Source: Chloroflexota bacterium (GTDB lineage Bacteria; Chloroflexota; UBA11872; VXOZ01). From it: a stretch of 43,473 nt of DNA. The DNA lies in assembly GCA_022824225.1 (NCBI GenBank), contig JAJEAH010000038.1:1-43473 (forward strand). Direction: 5' to 3'. Both the position numbers and the translations under genes were made by a program. The notes under the pieces were generated by a model. That model saw only the letters and a program-made list of their open reading frames with translations, searched no databases and was not told the origin of the DNA. Positions 31,949 through 39,139 of the stretch are shown here, piece after piece. Each line of letters opens with the position of its first letter. Within the stretch, counting starts at the first letter, position 1.

Positions 31949-32040
31949 AGGCAAATGGTCTGGCGACAGGCTCAGCACGAATGGAGGGGGACTACTTCCG
32001 TTCGCCCTGAGCAACTTCGAAGGGTGAATGGAAAAACGAA
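31949..32040. repeat. Diverged palindromic repeat copy
   Basis: TTCCGTTC (31996-32003) pairs with GAATGGAA (32026-32033) except for one G-T type mismatch, enclosing CCCTGAGCAACTTCGAAGGG. A second core (GACAGGCTCAGCACGAATGG) precedes it. This is another locus of the same repeat family, between two plus-strand genes. Confidence 0.7.
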
Positions 32041-32061
32041 TAGACGAGAGAGGTAGAGTGC

Positions 32062-33858
32062 GTGACTGCTAAGGATATGACTACCATCTTGCCGCCGTTG
32101 TGCTGCTACGACCCGGAGTTTGCGCCGTTTGGGCGTTACGGTTTGGAGATGCTCTTTGCCGAGGGGTTGACCGGCGCGGAGGAGCGGAACGTGCGGGAGG
32201 CGCCGCTGGAGGCAGGCGCTGCTAAAGAACGGCAGGCGGTCATTGTCGCGCCGTGCGGTGAGGACACGGGAGCGGAGGCGGCGGCGCTGGCGGCGCTGCG
32301 CCAGGGAACGCCAGTGGTGTTTTTGCGTCCTTCCGCAGAGACGGCGGCGGAACTTGGCATTAAGGATAGGCAGCGGCGCACGGCCAATGAGGCTTACATC
32401 GCGCCGGAGCGCGACCATCCGCTGTGGTTCGCGGCCCTGGGCGACTTTCTGCAATTTCACGGCGCGGCGGATATGTATGGGGAATATGGCGGAAACGAGC
32501 GCGTGCTGGCTTGGGTCGCCGGGCGCGATTGGGCCTTGCCGTTTCCGGCCATCGTCACCGGCACGTACGGCGCGGGGCGGTTTGCCGTTTTCACGTACGA
32601 CCTGGCGGAATCAACGGTCCTCTTCCACCAGGGATGCCCGGACCTGGCCAGCACCGGGGATAGGCCGGATGCCGACGGTGACGGCCTGTTTTCGCCCAGC
32701 GACCTCTTCTTTGGCTACCGCGACCGCACGCTGCTCGATTTGCCGCAGGCCGACCTGCAGCAGCAGTTGCTCGTGCGCATCTTGGAGTGGGCAAGCGCGC
32801 CGCACATGCCATTGGCGCGGCTGTGGTACTATCCCGACGCCGCGCCTGCCATCGTGCTCCTCAACGGCGACAGCGACGGCATGACCCGACCGCAGATGGA
32901 GTGGTACACCAACATGGTGGAAGCCCACGGCGGCGAGTATACGGTCTACCTCATGGAGGAGCACCTCAAGCACCTCACGCCGGAGATGGAGCGCGACTAC
33001 CGGCGGCGGGGCCACTCGGCGGGACCCCATATCTGGCATTCGCTCAAGCCGACCGTGGCGGAAATGCGCGAGCGCATTCAGGAGGAAGTGGCACTCTTTG
33101 AAGATCGTTACGGCTATCCGCCCAAGACCACCCGCCACCACTGCGTCATCTGGCCGGGCTGGGTGGAGACCGCCCAGGCGCTGGCCGACGCCGGTTTTCG
33201 CATGGATACCAATTACCGCGCGGGCGACCACCAGCAATACGGCTACCTGACCGGCAGCGGTCTGCCCATGCGGTTCATCGATGCGGGAGGCGAGTTTATC
33301 GAGCTTTTTGAGCAAGAGACGCTCTTTTGCGATGACTATGTGCTGGTGGACAAGAGTTTCCTGCCGCCCTTGAGCGTGGAGGAGGCTATTGCGGTCTCCA
33401 AGGAGTACATCGACGCCGCCATCGCCAGCTACCACACGGTGGTCCACCTCTACTTCCATCCCATCTACGCTACGGGCATACGCGTTCGGACCGGGCAACT
33501 CATCCATACCGCCGGCTGGTTCGAGGCAGTCTTGAAGTATGCCGCGGCGCTGGACTTGCCCATGCCGAGCACGGACGCGTGGTGCACCTTCAATGAACGG
33601 CGGCGCGCGATGGCGCTCACCAGCCAACATTGGGATGCCGATGCCGGTATGCTCACCTTGCATATCGACGCGCAGGATACGCTGTCCGGCAGCACGCTGC
33701 TGGCGCCGGCATACTATGGCGAAAGAGAGATCGAGCGCGCGCTGCTGGACGGTGAGGAGATGCAACTCATCCGCCGCAGCGTGGGAGGCGAGGCGCGCGG
33801 CTTGGCGGTGGGCGATTTCGCCGCCGGGCCGCATCTGGTGACCGTCCACTACCGCTAG
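32062..33858 (+). CDS. Polysaccharide deacetylase-like protein with amidotransferase-like N-terminus
   Basis: A 598-residue protein starting at GTG 32062, with an AGAGAGGTAGAG stretch upstream. Residues 1-250 look like a class I glutamine-amidotransferase or ThuA-like trefoil fold (VIVAPCGEDTG, GTPVVFLRPS, FPAIVTGTYGAGRFAVFTYDLAESTVLFHQG). Residues about 258-500 resemble the NodB/CE4 barrel: IVLLNGDSDGMT (D270, D272), RRGHSAGPHIWH (H318, H323), TTRHHCVIWPGWVETAQALADAGFRMDTNYR (R358), later VVHLYFHPIYATGI. The C-terminal 100 residues form a beta-sandwich. No signal peptide is visible. CE4 enzymes remove N- or O-acetyl groups from glycans with a metal ion; the N-terminal fusion is common in uncharacterised proteins. 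It opens a cluster of glycan-related genes, but its real substrate is unknown. Confidence 0.78.
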   Translation: MTAKDMTTILPPLCCYDPEFAPFGRYGLEMLFAEGLTGAEERNVREAPLEAGAAKERQAVIVAPCGEDTGAEAAALAALRQGTPVVFLRPSAETAAELGIKDRQRRTANEAYIAPERDHPLWFAALGDFLQFHGAADMYGEYGGNERVLAWVAGRDWALPFPAIVTGTYGAGRFAVFTYDLAESTVLFHQGCPDLASTGDRPDADGDGLFSPSDLFFGYRDRTLLDLPQADLQQQLLVRILEWASAPHMPLARLWYYPDAAPAIVLLNGDSDGMTRPQMEWYTNMVEAHGGEYTVYLMEEHLKHLTPEMERDYRRRGHSAGPHIWHSLKPTVAEMRERIQEEVALFEDRYGYPPKTTRHHCVIWPGWVETAQALADAGFRMDTNYRAGDHQQYGYLTGSGLPMRFIDAGGEFIELFEQETLFCDDYVLVDKSFLPPLSVEEAIAVSKEYIDAAIASYHTVVHLYFHPIYATGIRVRTGQLIHTAGWFEAVLKYAAALDLPMPSTDAWCTFNERRRAMALTSQHWDADAGMLTLHIDAQDTLSGSTLLAPAYYGEREIERALLDGEEMQLIRRSVGGEARGLAVGDFAAGPHLVTVHYR

Positions 33859-33892
33859 CGAACTCCCGCGGCCTTGCCAAACGCCAAAGCGC

Positions 33893-34705
33893 CTACATGA
33901 CCGGCAGCATGCCCATCATCCACAGCATCATCGCGCCCATTCCCAGCATCATAAGCAGCATGAGGGCCATGCGGGCGAGCAGGGCCGCGGTGCGCCAGGG
34001 CGCGTAGCCGAAGCCGACCGCAACGATGCGACCGGCGAGCCGAAATAGCCCCCACAGCCGCAGACCGTACCGTGACCGGCCCGCGGGGTCCGGGTCCAGC
34101 GGCAGGAAGACCACCGGCGCGTCGGCGGCAAGCATGTCCAGCGTGAGGGCGGCCGGCGGCGTAAAGTCCCCGGTCAACCCACCGCGCAGCCGGTTGAGCG
34201 CGCGGCGATGGATAACGCGTAAGCCGGAGTTCAAGTCGAGTACCGGCATCCCCAGGGCGTCCGCGGCGGTCATGTCCATGAACCACGGTAACAGCCGGCG
34301 GTAAGCGGGAACCGGATGCCGTGTGCCAACGCGCACGCCGACCGCCATGTCGGCGTCGAATTCCTGGAGCGTTCGCAGCAGGCCTGGAATGGCCGCGGCG
34401 GCGTAGAGCGTGTGGCGGTCTATGGTGCAGATGAGTTGGTGATTCGTCTGGGCGCAGGCGCCGAGCAGCGCGTTCCCCCAGTCGCCGCCGCTCTGGGGAG
34501 GCGCGCCGGATGCGGCGGCGCGTTCAGCGTTTGCGGTTGGCGCACACCGGTCGTCTTCGCCAACGACGATGATGTCCCACGTCAGACCGGCGTCGCCAAA
34601 ACCGGCGACCGCGCGCGCCACTGCCGCTTGAGCATCCGCATGGAAGAGCAGGACAGCCACGGTTACGGGCGCGGCGTCCGTGTCCCTTCCGCTCACCATC
34701 TCCAT
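33893..34705 (-). CDS. Degenerate GT2-like glycosyltransferase with C-terminal helix
   Basis: A 270-residue protein with the outline of a dolichyl-phosphate-mannose-synthase-like GT2 enzyme: an initial strand VTVAVLLFHADAQAAVARAV, WDIIVVGEDD, a later segment GNALLGACAQTNHQLICTIDRHTLY, then AVGVRVGTRHPVPAYRRLLPWFMDMTAADALGMPVLDLNSGLRVIHRRAL. In active members the third segment carries D-A-D-L-Q; here it reads IDRHTLY (Asp96), so the metal-binding DxD appears lost. The LDLNSGLRVI part, matching the acceptor region, is kept. The final 40 residues are a very Met/Ala/Leu-rich transmembrane helix. It may bind rather than transfer sugars, or be decaying. It is convergent with the deacetylase-like gene, 34 bases away. 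Confidence 0.7.
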   Translation of the reverse strand: MEMVSGRDTDAAPVTVAVLLFHADAQAAVARAVAGFGDAGLTWDIIVVGEDDRCAPTANAERAAASGAPPQSGGDWGNALLGACAQTNHQLICTIDRHTLYAAAAIPGLLRTLQEFDADMAVGVRVGTRHPVPAYRRLLPWFMDMTAADALGMPVLDLNSGLRVIHRRALNRLRGGLTGDFTPPAALTLDMLAADAPVVFLPLDPDPAGRSRYGLRLWGLFRLAGRIVAVGFGYAPWRTAALLARMALMLLMMLGMGAMMLWMMGMLPVM

Positions 34706-34966
34706 GTGGTAGGCCCTTTGCCGTTCGGCTGCGGCCTTGTCGTTGCCGGGCGATGCAGGCGCTGCACTCTGGGCTTAGCCCGCGTCCGTTCTTCGTTCAC
34801 GCAGCCTGCCGGTGACGATCTAGCAACGGCGATATTGCTTTCGCGCGGCGGCGCAGCGGGCAGAACGTATGGAGCATGCTCGTTCCAGGCGTGCTGAAGC
34901 GCGTCAGGCTGCTGCGTGACGCAAGCGACGGGAGCGGGCCGGAAGCGGTCCCGGCACGTATTGTCG

Positions 34967-36436
34967 TCAGGACTCCGCCGAGGCAACGTTCTTCATGTGC
35001 GGACTGACCCTGGCATGCACGCGCCGGGGATACTCATACGTATCGACCCGGTCATCGAGGTGCGCGGGCAACGCCTGGCCCAGGAAGCCCTCCAGCCGCG
35101 CGCGCATGTGCAGAGCCGCTTCCGGGTTGCTTTCGAGCACGTTGGCGGTCTCCAGCGGGTCGTTGCGCAAGTCGTAGAGTTCTTCCTGCACGTGCTGGGC
35201 CGCGGTCTCCTGCGTAACCGTAAAGCCGCCGCTGTCGGTCTTGCGCGGCCCCTGCTCGAAGTCCACGACGTAGTTGTAGTCGTGGTCGCGCACGGTGGCG
35301 TGTTGGCCCCAGCCGGCTATCACGAAATCGCGGACCGAATCTTGCTTGCCGGTAACCAGCGGCCACATGGACTTGCCGTCCAGGCCCCGGTGTTCGACGC
35401 CAAAGAGATCGAGCACCGTCGGCGGCACGTCCTGGTGCTGCACAAAGGCATCCAGCCGCTGGCCGGCGTACTGCTTGTCGGGATGGCGCAGGAACATGTT
35501 GATACGGGTATTGAACCACTGCAAGTGGTCTTCCGACTTGCCAAACCGGTTGCGGTCCAGGAGTTCTGTGCCGTGGTCGGACGTGAAGATGATCACCGTG
35601 TCGCCGAGCAGATGGAGCTGTTCCAGCTTGTCCAAGAAGTGACCGATCCAGGTATCCACGAACGTCACTTCACCGTAGTAGAGCGCCTTGGTCCGTTCGA
35701 TGGCCGACTCGCCGACCACCTCCGTGCCCACGGGCCAGATGTAGTCCTTGACCGAGTCGTCTTTGTAGTAGGCGTCTGCGTAGTGCAGCGGCGGGTCCCA
35801 TGGTTCGTGCGGATCGAAGGAATCGATATAGAGGTAGAACGGGCCATAGGAGGCGTTGTTTTCCACCCAGTCCATGGCGCTCAGGAAGACGCGGGCCGCT
35901 TGGAAGTCATCCTCTTTCGTGCGTTCACCCTGGTTCCAGAGATATTGCAGCATGCCCGTCATGCGCGGCGAGTCCGGCTCGGCGTCCGTATACTTGGTTG
36001 GGTCCACGGCGCCGGGCGGGAGGGTCTTCCAGTGGTCGAACTCCTGGCCGCGCACGAAGTCCCACGAGCAGAAGCCGCGCGTGAAGTTCATGGTCGCTTT
36101 GAACATGTGATACGTATCGGCGATGAAGCCGGTGTTGACACCGGATTCGACCAGGCGTTCGGCTACCGGCGTGTGTTCCGGCGGAATCTTGTGCCAGCCG
36201 CGTGGCGAGGGGCTGGAGCCCAACGTATCGAAGCCAAACCGCCAGGGAAAGCTATCCATGCCGGTAAAGAGCGCGCGGCGCACGGGGATGGTGGGGTACG
36301 CGCAGCCGTAGGCTTCGGTAAAGACGGTGCTTTCCGCCGCCAGGTTGTCAAGCACTGGCGTGCGGATGAAATCAGCGCCGAGTGAATGCACCATGTCGGT
36401 GCGCATGGTATCGAGGCAGATTACGACGACGTTCAT
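34967..36436 (-). CDS. Sulfatase-like (alkaline phosphatase superfamily) hydrolase with Thr at the nucleophile position
   Basis: A 489-residue protein with the sulfatase fold. Landmarks: VVVICLDTMRTDMV (Asp9, Asp14), YPTIPVRRALFTGM (47-60), YLYIDSFDPHEPWDPP (Asp208, His210), FTSDHGTELLD (Asp287, His288) and the C-terminal substrate segment LYDLRNDPLETANV. Active sulfatases have C/S-x-P-x-R, the Cys or Ser being oxidised to formylglycine; here the motif is T49-I-P51-V-R53. Thr is the nucleophile in phosphonate or nucleotide phosphodiesterase members of the same superfamily, so this could be a phosphodiesterase, phosphonate hydrolase or non-formylglycine enzyme. There is no signal peptide. The ATG 36436 is clean. 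It diverges from the membrane glycosyltransferase-like gene. Confidence 0.9.
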   Translation of the reverse strand: MNVVVICLDTMRTDMVHSLGADFIRTPVLDNLAAESTVFTEAYGCAYPTIPVRRALFTGMDSFPWRFGFDTLGSSPSPRGWHKIPPEHTPVAERLVESGVNTGFIADTYHMFKATMNFTRGFCSWDFVRGQEFDHWKTLPPGAVDPTKYTDAEPDSPRMTGMLQYLWNQGERTKEDDFQAARVFLSAMDWVENNASYGPFYLYIDSFDPHEPWDPPLHYADAYYKDDSVKDYIWPVGTEVVGESAIERTKALYYGEVTFVDTWIGHFLDKLEQLHLLGDTVIIFTSDHGTELLDRNRFGKSEDHLQWFNTRINMFLRHPDKQYAGQRLDAFVQHQDVPPTVLDLFGVEHRGLDGKSMWPLVTGKQDSVRDFVIAGWGQHATVRDHDYNYVVDFEQGPRKTDSGGFTVTQETAAQHVQEELYDLRNDPLETANVLESNPEAALHMRARLEGFLGQALPAHLDDRVDTYEYPRRVHARVSPHMKNVASAES

Positions 36437-36668
36437 GATTGTGGGCCCGGACCTCTGCTTGTCTAAACGATATTGCCTCTAGCTAAGCACATTGCGCCAG
36501 GGCCGCGCAAGCCGCGCTGTGGCGGGGCGCGGCAATCTAGTCCGAGTCGCACGGACGGGTGGCGCGGTTGCGCCACGGTTCGCGCCGCCATTAGAATGAG
36601 GCTTGGCATGCGCCGCATGTCTATACGCGTTCCCCACTCCTCAATTCCATTGCTACTCACTTGCGCCC

Positions 36669-38252
36669 ATGGAACAACCAGCTCAAATCGCGGGCAGCGC
36701 GCGCCAAGAACTGACTGCGTGGACACGGCTCGGTTGGCTGCTCAGCGTTGGGTTCCTCGTTGTGACAGCCGTAAGCCGCATTCCCTTTCGCAGCGAGACG
36801 CTGTTTGCGTGGGATTCCGCGAACTACGCCTTCGCGCTCGCCGAGTACAACGTAGTCTTCCACCAGCCGCAGCCTCCCGGCTATCCCCTCTACGTCGGCA
36901 GCGCCAAGCTGCTCTACGGCCTGGGCCTGGACGCCAACGCGAGCTACGTGCTGCTCTCTGTGGCCGCCAGCAGCCTGGCGGTGTGGCTGCTATTCGTGCT
37001 TGGCTGGCGGCTCTACGGCCTGCAAACGGCAATCGTCAGCGCCTTGTTGCTGGCGACGAGCAGTGTATTCTGGAGCCACGGCGAGGTGGCGTATCCGTAC
37101 GCGTTCCTCGCTCTGTTCAGCACACTCGTGTTGTTGTTGCTGGTCGAGACGAAGTTTGGGCCGCGCAACCTGATCGTGCCGGCGGCTTTGGCGTTGGGCG
37201 TGGGCGCGGGGTTCCGGCCGGACCTCCTCCTATTCCTCTTGCCGGTGTGGCTCTACGCGTGGTGGGGACAGACTCTGCGCAGTCTCATTGCCGGTTTCGT
37301 TGTGATGGTCTTGGTTGTCCTGGCTTGGGGAGCGGCCACGGTGCAATTGTCCGGCGGTTGGGAAGCCTACGCAAACGCATCCGGGGAGTACTACGGCTTT
37401 TGGTCGGGGCAGCCCACCGGCCTGATGAGCTATCTGAGCAACGTGATTGACAACACCCGCACATTGACTGCGGTCCTCTATAACGGCGTTGGCCTGGCGC
37501 TCTTGCCCATCGTCTACTTCCTGGGGCGGTACTTCTCGCCGCAGCAGGTCGTCCGGGATGCCCGCACACGGATAGTAACGCTCTGGATTATCGTGCCGTT
37601 CGTCTTCTACATGTTTGCCCACATTGGCAATCCCGGTTACGTGCTGTCGTTTCTGCCGGGCCTGCTAGTCTACGCTGCCTTGGCCGTACGCGGCTTTTCC
37701 CGCGATTGCGAGCAGGCCTATCGCTTTTTCATGACCCAGCGGGGCATGGTCACCACAGCCTTAACGCCGCATCGGGTCTCCGTAGGCATCACCGGCGCGC
37801 TTGTTGCCCTCATCGCGGGCACGAACGCCCTGCTCTTCCTGTTTGCCGCCGGTGAGGGCCGCTATCAGGAGATCCGGCAGATAGACGACATCCTCACCAA
37901 GCAGGTGCGGTACATCACGTTGAACCACACCCCGGCGGACACGCTCATCGTCGCCTTCGACCGCTCGCACCAGCTTGAGTACTACTTGCCGGACTACACC
38001 TTCCGCCTGCTGCTCGATCCCGGCCATCCCACGTACTGGGAGGCGCGGCAGGAGTTTACTGTGCCGGAAGGGGTCACCCGGATCATCCTGCCCGACCTGG
38101 GCAGGAATACCAGCGACCGGACGGACGGCATCGTTCAAGTGGGTCTCGGGCCCGGTGTCAGTCTCTTCGTGGCTACCGTGCGGCCCGGCGATACGCTCAT
38201 ACACGGTTACCAATACGCTTCTGTGCGCCCGAAGGCGGAGGGCGGCGGATGA
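36669..38252 (+). CDS. Multi-spanning glycosyltransferase-like membrane protein (DUF2723/GT-C)
   Basis: A 527-residue protein from ATG 36669 (MEQPAQIAG). The frame continues 22 codons upstream but this is rejected because residues there are not membrane-like. The first helix (LGWLLSVGFLVVTAVS) is followed by RSETLFAWDSANYAFALAEYNVVFHQPQPPGYPLYVGSAKLLY: the Asp in the first loop and the PPGYPLY segment are typical of GT-C type polyprenyl-phosphate sugar transferases and DUF2723 proteins. About ten helices follow, with HGEVAYPYAFLALF, and a C-terminal soluble domain from about residue 420. It overlaps folP by four bases (ATGA), which suggests co-translation although their functions are unrelated. 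Donor and acceptor unknown. Confidence 0.82.
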   Translation: MEQPAQIAGSARQELTAWTRLGWLLSVGFLVVTAVSRIPFRSETLFAWDSANYAFALAEYNVVFHQPQPPGYPLYVGSAKLLYGLGLDANASYVLLSVAASSLAVWLLFVLGWRLYGLQTAIVSALLLATSSVFWSHGEVAYPYAFLALFSTLVLLLLVETKFGPRNLIVPAALALGVGAGFRPDLLLFLLPVWLYAWWGQTLRSLIAGFVVMVLVVLAWGAATVQLSGGWEAYANASGEYYGFWSGQPTGLMSYLSNVIDNTRTLTAVLYNGVGLALLPIVYFLGRYFSPQQVVRDARTRIVTLWIIVPFVFYMFAHIGNPGYVLSFLPGLLVYAALAVRGFSRDCEQAYRFFMTQRGMVTTALTPHRVSVGITGALVALIAGTNALLFLFAAGEGRYQEIRQIDDILTKQVRYITLNHTPADTLIVAFDRSHQLEYYLPDYTFRLLLDPGHPTYWEARQEFTVPEGVTRIILPDLGRNTSDRTDGIVQVGLGPGVSLFVATVRPGDTLIHGYQYASVRPKAEGGG

Positions 38253-39139
38253 GCCTGCCGCTCATTTCCGCTGAACCGCGCTTGCCGGCCACGCGCTGCG
38301 GCGGGCGTACTTTCACGTGGGGCGAACGCACGTACGTCGTTGGGATTCTCAACGTAACGCCCGATTCATTTTCCGGCGACGGCGTGGGCAAGGACGTGAG
38401 TCGCGCCGCGGCGCAGGCGGCGCGATTTGCCGCGGAGGGCGCCGACGTGCTGGACATTGGCGGCGAGTCGACCCGCCCCGGCGCGGTGACTACTTCCCTG
38501 CAGGAAGAACTCGACCGTGTGTTGCCAGCCGTTGAGGCCGTGCGGCGGGAGGTGGACGTGCCCATTTCCATCGATACGTACAAGCCGGCCGTGGCCCGTG
38601 AGGCTGTGCGCGCTGGCGCGTCCATGGTCAATGACGTGTGGGGCTTGCGGGGTGATGCGGACATGGGCGCGACTGTCGCGTCGCTGAACGTGCCGGTGGT
38701 GCTCATGCACAACCGCCGGTCCGTTGCGCAACACTCTTCTCTCGGCGGCTACTACGGAAGCGCCGCCTACGCTGACGTGGCGGAAGACGTGACCCGAGAG
38801 TTGGGCGATACGGTTGCCCGCGCCACGTCATGCGGCATTGCCGGAGAGAACATCATTGTGGACCCTGGGATTGGGTTCGGCAAGACGCCGCCGCAGAACA
38901 TTGCGCTCATGCGAAACCTGAATGTGCTCCGGCGCTTGGGGCAACCGGTGCTCGTTGGTACGTCGCGCAAGTCATTCATCGGGCTTGCCTTGGATCTGCC
39001 CGCGAACGATCGCCTGGAAGGCACGGCGGCTACGGTGGCTCTGGCCATAGCCCAGGGCGTTGACCTCGTGCGCGTGCACGACGTGGGCGCCATGGCACGG
39101 GTTTGCCGCATGACCGATGCCATCGTGCGCGGGGGCTAA
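38249..39139 (+). CDS. folP: Dihydropteroate synthase
   Basis: FolP condenses dihydropterin pyrophosphate with para-aminobenzoate in folate synthesis. The 296-residue protein has the two signatures of the family: VGILNVTPDSFSGDG (loop 1) and GADVLDIGGESTRPGA (loop 2), then SIDTYKPAVAREAVRAGASMVNDVWGL, VVLMHNRR, IIVDPGIGFGKTPPQNIALMRNL and VGTSRKSFIG with the substrate-binding Ser-Arg-Lys, ending in AIAQGVDLVRVHDV. The N-terminus is about 25 residues longer than the shortest members. ATG 38249 overlaps the stop codon of the membrane protein upstream. No other folate gene is near, but chorismate, the source of para-aminobenzoate, is made by the aro genes elsewhere in the window. Confidence 0.97.
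   Translation: MSLPLISAEPRLPATRCGGRTFTWGERTYVVGILNVTPDSFSGDGVGKDVSRAAAQAARFAAEGADVLDIGGESTRPGAVTTSLQEELDRVLPAVEAVRREVDVPISIDTYKPAVAREAVRAGASMVNDVWGLRGDADMGATVASLNVPVVLMHNRRSVAQHSSLGGYYGSAAYADVAEDVTRELGDTVARATSCGIAGENIIVDPGIGFGKTPPQNIALMRNLNVLRRLGQPVLVGTSRKSFIGLALDLPANDRLEGTAATVALAIAQGVDLVRVHDVGAMARVCRMTDAIVRGG

Follow-up and report, generated by a model that had tools for sequence, protein, structure and literature searches.

A sulfatase-fold gene from a Chloroflexota bacterium carries threonine at the formylglycine position, with linked replacements across its predicted active site

The window analyzed here comprises positions 1 to 43,473 of contig JAJEAH010000038.1 (forward strand) from the Chloroflexota assembly GCA_022824225.1. 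The gene under study and the open reading frames around it are:

34967..36436, minus strand: gene for a 489-aa sulfatase-fold protein with threonine at residue 49 (Thr49), start ATG at 36436
33893..34705, minus strand: family-2 glycosyltransferase (GT2) gene, directly downstream on the same strand (PF00535, 23.7 bits, cut-off 23.3)
34916..36385, plus strand: opposite open reading frame, also of 489 aa, the same length by coincidence; unrelated and most likely spurious
32062..33858, plus strand: gene for a 598-aa protein, conserved near the Thr49 gene in the genus, with no Pfam or NCBIfam match at E ≤ 0.01

An earlier note on 34967-36436 gave no strand; the gene lies on the minus strand. The open frame, at 503 aa, extends only about 14 codons upstream of the ATG and thus leaves no room for a signal peptide; inspection of the protein likewise found no membrane segment or export signal. 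Nor is there an N-terminal membrane domain of the EptA/LtaS/YejM type, the protein beginning with the first core strand. A search of Rfam over 32000-38500 gave no match, and a promoter and terminator scan returned one site of each kind, with 0.3 and 1.8 expected by chance.

The protein belongs to PF00884 (131.3 bits over residues 2-347, cut-off 25). Its T-I-P-V-R stretch, whose threonine is residue 49 of 489, falls on the catalytic motif when HMMER aligns the protein with sulfatases and phosphonate monoester hydrolases (PMHs) of solved structure. Thr49 aligns with the formylglycine Cys/Ser of PF00884, and the replacement of the formylglycine motif described in the earlier note is therefore real. 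None of the NCBIfam models reached its own cut-off with this protein, and a match to PF01663 (34.2 bits, cut-off 23) passed, yet its sole passing stretch covers residues 256-298. A solved structure of a close relative was sought in the PDB, where the best matches were only 7oz8 for the single-sequence query (E 1.3e-21) and the PMH 4uph for the profile query (E 1.5e-48). The nearby Cys45 was considered as a formylglycine site and discarded: its context, C-A-Y-P-T, does not match CxPxR, and Cys occurs at 45 in 0 of 13 other rows of alignment A1.

An AlphaFold2 model built from ten sequences (pTM 0.78, mean pLDDT 68.6) has its first beta strand from residue 2 and places Thr49 at the opening of a helix (49-58), with pLDDT below 50 in the active-site loops 109-120, 210-212, and 291-305. 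Foldseek and VIA-align 2 retrieved structural neighbours at Z about 28-34, among S1 sulfatases, PMHs, and YejM. The closest folds were mostly sulfatases, with a PMH and YejM tied at Z about 29 (YejM: Z 29.0 over 317-318 residues, 15-16% identity), and since rows within 1 Z count as tied, the fold cannot choose between a sulfatase and a phosphoesterase. The claim in the earlier note that the rest of the sulfatase fold is kept is supported.

Thr49 is shared by the closest relatives of the gene. Across six genus sequences (the target gene and its orthologs at loci L022-L025 and L032; amino-acid identity 89-98%), codon 49 is ACC in all six, and dN/dS ranges from 0.026 to 0.074 over the 15 pairs (NG86), which indicates purifying selection. 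In the ortholog at L032 (genome G033), a TAG stop interrupts the frame five residues short of the end, the catalytic part being intact. Beyond the genus, matches at E ≤ 1e-40 were found in 54 of 400 evenly drawn Chloroflexota genomes, with 115 places listed, of which 94 were read and 21 were not fetched. In the phylum of the L026 genome, which is titled Gemmatimonadota, 47 of 64 genomes had a profile match (E ≤ 1e-90), and Thr was found in all 30 loci read, out of many more places listed.

A first alignment of 117 sequences combined the Chloroflexota loci, the 21 PF00884 genes of the source genome, and two Gemmatimonadota loci, with two short pieces dropped; adding plasmid homologs and the PMH RlPMH, and dropping three duplicate or partial rows, gave a reference alignment of 124 rows. 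In a quick tree (93 rows after thinning at 90% identity, with column 49 excluded; SH-aLRT without bootstrap), the target gene falls in a 74-row clade (SH-aLRT 100) of 61 Thr and 13 Cys rows, the latter forming one group (SH-aLRT 99) placed inside the Thr rows. This nesting is not firm, as a single Thr clade is not rejected (p-AU 0.385), and the tree thus does not fix the direction of the Thr/Cys change; long branches were flagged, L026 and L027 among them. Members of the Cys sister clade carry the motif S-L-P-C-M-P-A-R, come from Rhizobium, Paracoccus, and Halobacteria, and are unnamed and annotated as "sulfatase". In the same tree, RlPMH lies outside the clade on a long branch.

This distribution bears directly on the null case of the earlier note, namely that close homologs would have Cys or Ser here, with Thr49 an isolated change in an inactivated sulfatase. 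Thr is not known to give formylglycine, which is what speaks for inactivation; its oxidation would yield a ketone according to Barbeyron et al. 2016 (PMC5066984). Against it, Thr49 is conserved in the genus, the class, the phylum, and the Gemmatimonadota loci read, belongs to a Thr-majority clade, and is accompanied by low dN/dS and by the other catalytic residues. We rejected inactivation on the conservation of Thr49 and on dN/dS, and regard it as extremely improbable.

Several further homologs were encountered in these searches. In two Gemmatimonadota loci another PF00884 gene of the Thr type, with the motif P-T-T-S-A-Y, lies two genes downstream of the first (L026 10685-12100 and L027 10853-12295); these genes are without the motif Arg and without Asp107, and represent another Thr lineage. 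Phage matches comprised 18 records, the ten listed being 22-27% identical, and scans of viral contigs yielded two contigs in all, one bearing L142, L143, and L145 and the other L144, a distant gene. L142 (1-1455) is a full Thr-type gene with the motif P-T-I-P-H-R at the start of an IMG/VR contig. Next to the halobacterial Cys-type sister genes (L134 5795-7533, L137 5795-7533, L140 5780-7548, and L138 5790-7560) stands a gene of about 70 aa annotated as DUF1450, which overlaps the sister gene by 4 bases in the first three and precedes it by 4 bases in L138, an arrangement that suggests translational coupling.

We next compared the predicted active site codon by codon, using the 104 clade rows (91 Thr, 13 Cys) and the 20 outside rows of the reference alignment; these counts include near copies and are not independent.

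36410..36412, minus strand: Asp9 codon, predicted metal ligand; D in all 13 Cys rows and in 90 of the 91 Thr rows, the remaining row having a gap
36407..36409, minus strand: Thr10 codon; T or S in every clade row (103) except one with a gap
36290..36292, minus strand: Thr49 codon, formylglycine position; T in 91 and C in 13 of 104 clade rows
36278..36280, minus strand: Arg53 codon, closing the motif; R in all 104 clade rows and in 18 of the 20 outside rows
36116..36118, minus strand: Asp107 codon, at the sulfate-binding Lys of sulfatases; D in 104 of 104 clade rows
36107..36109, minus strand: His110 codon, of D-x-x-H; H in all 13 Cys rows and in 76 of the 91 Thr rows
35822..35824, minus strand: Asp205 codon, five residues before His210; D or E in all 104 clade rows
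35807..35809, minus strand: His210 codon, predicted general acid/base; H in all 104 clade rows and all 20 outside rows
35804..35806, minus strand: Glu211 codon; E in 104 of 104 clade rows and 0 of 20 outside
35573..35578, minus strand: Asp287-His288 codons (DHG), predicted metal ligands; both invariant across the 104 clade rows and the 20 outside rows
35537..35539, minus strand: Lys300 codon, general-acid partner; K in every clade row (103) except one with a gap

Outside the clade, position 10 is Gln, Glu, or Asp in 17 of 20 rows and Ser in the other three, canonical members having mostly Gln, Asp, or Glu; position 107 is Lys in 14 of 20 and Asp in none, and position 205 is acidic in one of the 19 residues listed for the 20 rows. 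The correspondence of Asp107 with the Lys of G-K-x-H was mapped by two aligners (MAFFT, and HMMER on 5g2v), not from structure, and the predicted metal-ligand residues Asp9, Asp287, and His288 are present and conserved in sequence, the active-site loops of the model being of low confidence. Position 107 is Ser in one further Thr row of the clade (L195, from G252, a genome of the same class), and position 210, His in 29 of the 30 Gemmatimonadota loci, is Asn in L219, so that neither Asp107 nor His210 is absolute. Glu211 is also not exclusive to the clade, occurring in four canonical Cys rows of G252, and Ser at position 10 is found in two canonical Cys rows of the same genome. As judged by alignment, Cys has given place to Thr49, Lys to Asp107, and Gln to Thr/Ser10 while the predicted metal and acid/base residues are kept, and Thr49 is a property of a well-supported clade with linked replacements at positions 10, 107, 205, and 211.

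Mutational work on characterized sulfatases allows some of these positions to be weighed. In choline sulfatase, binding of the sulfate oxygens is ascribed to Lys102 and Asn75, and His201-Lys309 is the general-acid pair; the K102L variant falls under the limit of detection in kcat/KM, and the penalty for C54S is 4.9 kcal/mol, or about 4000-fold in kcat/KM (as described in PMC5870055). In EfAS, Q21A, Q21D, and K110A are reported to abolish activity, and C61S to keep 20-35% of it, which the authors explain by Ser oxidation (PMC12421950). Across S1 sulfatases, Lys113 of AtsA is given as 94% conserved, with Asp there in 87 of 4058 sequences (PMC5066984). Unmodified Thr49 might still hydrolyze sulfate esters in place of formylglycine, as the overall fold and nearest structures, mostly S1 sulfatases, would suggest, and as would the finding that unmodified choline sulfatase (Cys54) is a multiple-turnover enzyme (reported in PMC6189696). 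The consistent exchange of the sulfate-binding Lys for Asp, however, argues against such a sulfatase, given that loss of the equivalent Lys kills both choline sulfatase and EfAS, and so does the cost of C54S; sulfate-ester hydrolysis by Thr49 is accordingly doubtful, and we rate it as quite unlikely. A PehA-type PMH with Thr in place of formylglycine would account for the PMHs among the best profile and fold matches, but the protein is not a member of the NCBIfam PehA model (NF045661, 102.7 bits against a cut-off of 900), and RlPMH, besides its position in the tree, has Tyr at the Asp107 site and Gln at the Thr10 site, all of which makes this assignment very unlikely.

Other members of the superfamily do use Thr nucleophiles, as the earlier note had stated. 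Thr is described as the metal-bound nucleophile in LtaS, EptA, and MCR-1, where it is phosphorylated in the last of these, and is supported in this role for YejM, whose T302A variant loses about 70% of phosphatase activity (PMC7576196). EptA, MCR-1, and LtaS, which are Thr-nucleophile, single-metal relatives, are transferases or synthases in the same account, and the protein could likewise pass a phospho group from Thr49 to an acceptor other than water, perhaps in the building of envelope glycans. The gene neighbourhood within the genus fits such a transferase: GT2 homologs adjoin the Thr49 ortholog in L022-L025, and a divergent PMT-like gene lies beside it in three of the four genus loci (L022, L023, and L025), the divergent gene next to the Thr49 gene itself scoring 21.1 bits with PF13231, below the cut-off of 26.1. 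The apparent lack of a membrane segment or export signal is at odds with it, as are the neighbours in other families, which differ and include substrate-binding proteins (SBPs), GFO/IDH/MocA, AAT, SDR, PhyH, and aldo-keto reductase genes. We consider a transferase unlikely.

ABC importer genes for a binding protein or permease (SBP_bac or BPD_transp_1) adjoin Thr-type genes in L061, L068, and L069; their best NCBIfam names are UgpB, MalE, and UgpA, all far below the cut-offs. A blastp comparison with 13 reference proteins places an SBP or permease gene next to the Thr-type gene in 3 of 14 neighbourhoods. An SBP-like gene precedes the genus ortholog on the same strand in L024, no importer gene lies beside the Thr49 gene itself, and in L070 two tandem Thr-type genes come immediately after a gene for a PF01663 phosphodiesterase. 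Among eight plasmid homologs with flanks (seven Cys, one Thr), ABC importer genes adjoin five, all Cys-type. Because ABC transporters are abundant in these genomes, such adjacency speaks weakly for an imported substrate. In the source genome, listed as 95% complete, neither GDPD (PF03009) nor PhnJ (PF06007) had a match at E ≤ 0.001, and one gene, at C5, scored above the PEP_mutase family cut-off.

Taken together, these results point towards an intact enzyme that is not a classical formylglycine sulfatase, as the earlier note had proposed, and that is probably no sulfatase at all. Since the clade has lost sulfate-binding and formylglycine features but kept the predicted metal and leaving-group chemistry, and since Thr nucleophiles have precedents, we infer a phospho-Thr mechanism on a phosphorus ester: at roughly even odds (probability about 0.5), the protein would be an active, cytosolic, metal-dependent hydrolase of the alkaline phosphatase superfamily. 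One divalent metal would be held by Asp9, Asp287, His288, and the side chain of Thr49; a phosphodiester or phosphonate ester would be attacked at its phosphorus by unmodified Thr49, His210 and Lys300 would together protonate the leaving group, and the resulting phospho-Thr49 intermediate, as in EptA/LtaS, would then be hydrolyzed. Asp107, Asp/Glu205, and Glu211 would take over the side of the pocket where sulfatases have the sulfate-binding Lys, and might suit a cationic part of the substrate or a second metal. The analysis itself establishes which residues are present, their conservation, the class of fold, purifying selection, and the clade; the role of Thr49 as nucleophile, the choice of phosphorus over sulfur, and that of hydrolysis over transfer are each inferred here.

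The importer genes of L061, L068, and L069, the SBP-like gene of L024, the PF01663 gene of L070, and the absence of a GDPD match count for this reading. Counted against it are the absence of a PhnJ match, the lack of an importer gene beside the Thr49 gene, the low transporter scores and the 3 of 14 neighbourhoods, the exceptions at positions 107 and 210, the activity retained by EfAS C61S, the mostly sulfatase folds among structural neighbours, and the weak model loops, as well as the Cys sister clade, which shares all other residues of the constellation and thereby indicates that this constellation is also compatible with formylglycine. The phosphonate- or phosphodiester-cleaving role suggested in the earlier note is a candidate function: it would suit both a nucleophilic Thr and a pocket that has lost the sulfate-binding Lys, but the genome has no PhnJ or GDPD match.

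A bolder extension is that the clade constitutes a separate enzyme class on a sulfatase scaffold, in which Asp107, Asp/Glu205, and Glu211, together with His110/His210, would make a second metal or cation site, phospho-Thr would be hydrolyzed without formylglycine chemistry, and the Cys sister group would mark a switch between formylglycine and Thr catalysis in an active site that otherwise stayed the same. This proposal is weakened by the occurrence of Glu211 outside the clade and by the one exception at Asp107, and we hold it to be speculative and on the improbable side. If true, a sizeable share of reported Chloroflexota "arylsulfatase" expansions would be phosphoesterases. The Cys sister group, having the same other residues, offers a direct way to ask how the chemistry at the nucleophile, by formylglycine or by Thr, goes together with the choice of sulfate or phosphate as substrate.

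The prevalence of Thr-type genes also matters for how sulfatase counts are read. Thr occupies the aligned position in 6 of the 21 PF00884 genes of the source genome, five of them in the Thr-type clade. The sixth, L020 (C12:35652-36674), has T-T-G-A-R and Trp for the sulfate-binding Lys, and sits beside Cys sulfatases in the tree; by its sequence, it may be a genuinely isolated change and perhaps inactive. The same genome has one FGE gene, which presumably serves its 15 Cys-type genes. In G252, 66 places were found, and the stretches fetched gave 66 distinct open reading frames (17 T, 46 C, and 3 without the residue; three fragments without the motif region were not fetched as such). Two of the 17 (L203_p2_231 and L201_p1_292) are evidently wrong-frame or misaligned, which leaves 15, among them the truncated L203_p0 and L195, without Asp107. 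Sulfatase counts serve to infer diets of sulfated polysaccharides, and the COG3119 expansion of SAR202 Chloroflexota has been read in this way (PMC6946804); neither the source genome nor G252 has been shown to be SAR202. The Thr-type genes, 5 of 21 PF00884 genes in the source genome and 15 of 66 open reading frames in G252, ought to be left out of tallies of formylglycine sulfatases, and for the Thr49 gene the automatic annotation as a "sulfatase" is likely misleading.

PF00884 proteins with Thr at this position were known before, Thr being reported in 30 of the 59 PF00884 seed sequences (PMC5066984). For the large T-x-P-x-R branch, with linked acids and a Cys sister group, we found no description in the literature, consulted mostly as titles and abstract beginnings. 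The acesulfame sulfatase (PMC11500405) was set aside as a Cys enzyme.

Compared with known systems, the protein resembles SulfAtlas S1 sulfatases in its fold, the predicted Asp9/Asp287/His288 metal site, the His210-Lys300 pair, and the x-P-x-R that follows the nucleophile. It departs from the S1 patterns given in PMC5066984 at three signatures, having T-I-P-V-R for [CS]-x-P-x-R, Asp9-Thr10 for the first metal signature [DE]-[DQ], and Ala106-Asp107 for the Gly-Lys second signature (Gly112-Lys113 of AtsA), and it further differs by the acid at 205 and by Glu211, the latter also present in a few canonical rows. PehA PMHs (RlPMH, BcPMH, and ArPMH) share the fold, the Asp-His metal pair, and the predicted phosphorus chemistry, yet they have formylglycine where this protein has Thr49, as well as Gln13 and a Tyr at the Asp107 site, are 18-24% identical in fold alignments, and form a separate branch in the tree. 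EptA/MCR-1, LtaS, and YejM are alike in the metal-bound Thr nucleophile, predicted here, but are membrane-anchored and outward-facing, and they are not known to have x-P-x-R. Glu31-Thr32 of MCR-1 resembles Asp9-Thr10, and the Asp-His pair is also present in MCR-1 and LtaS (as described in PMC7576196). The closest counterpart in residues is the Cys sister clade, which has the same Asp-Thr/Ser, Asp107, Asp/Glu205, His-Glu211, Asp-His, and Lys300, and differs in having Cys at position 49, where formylglycine is possible.
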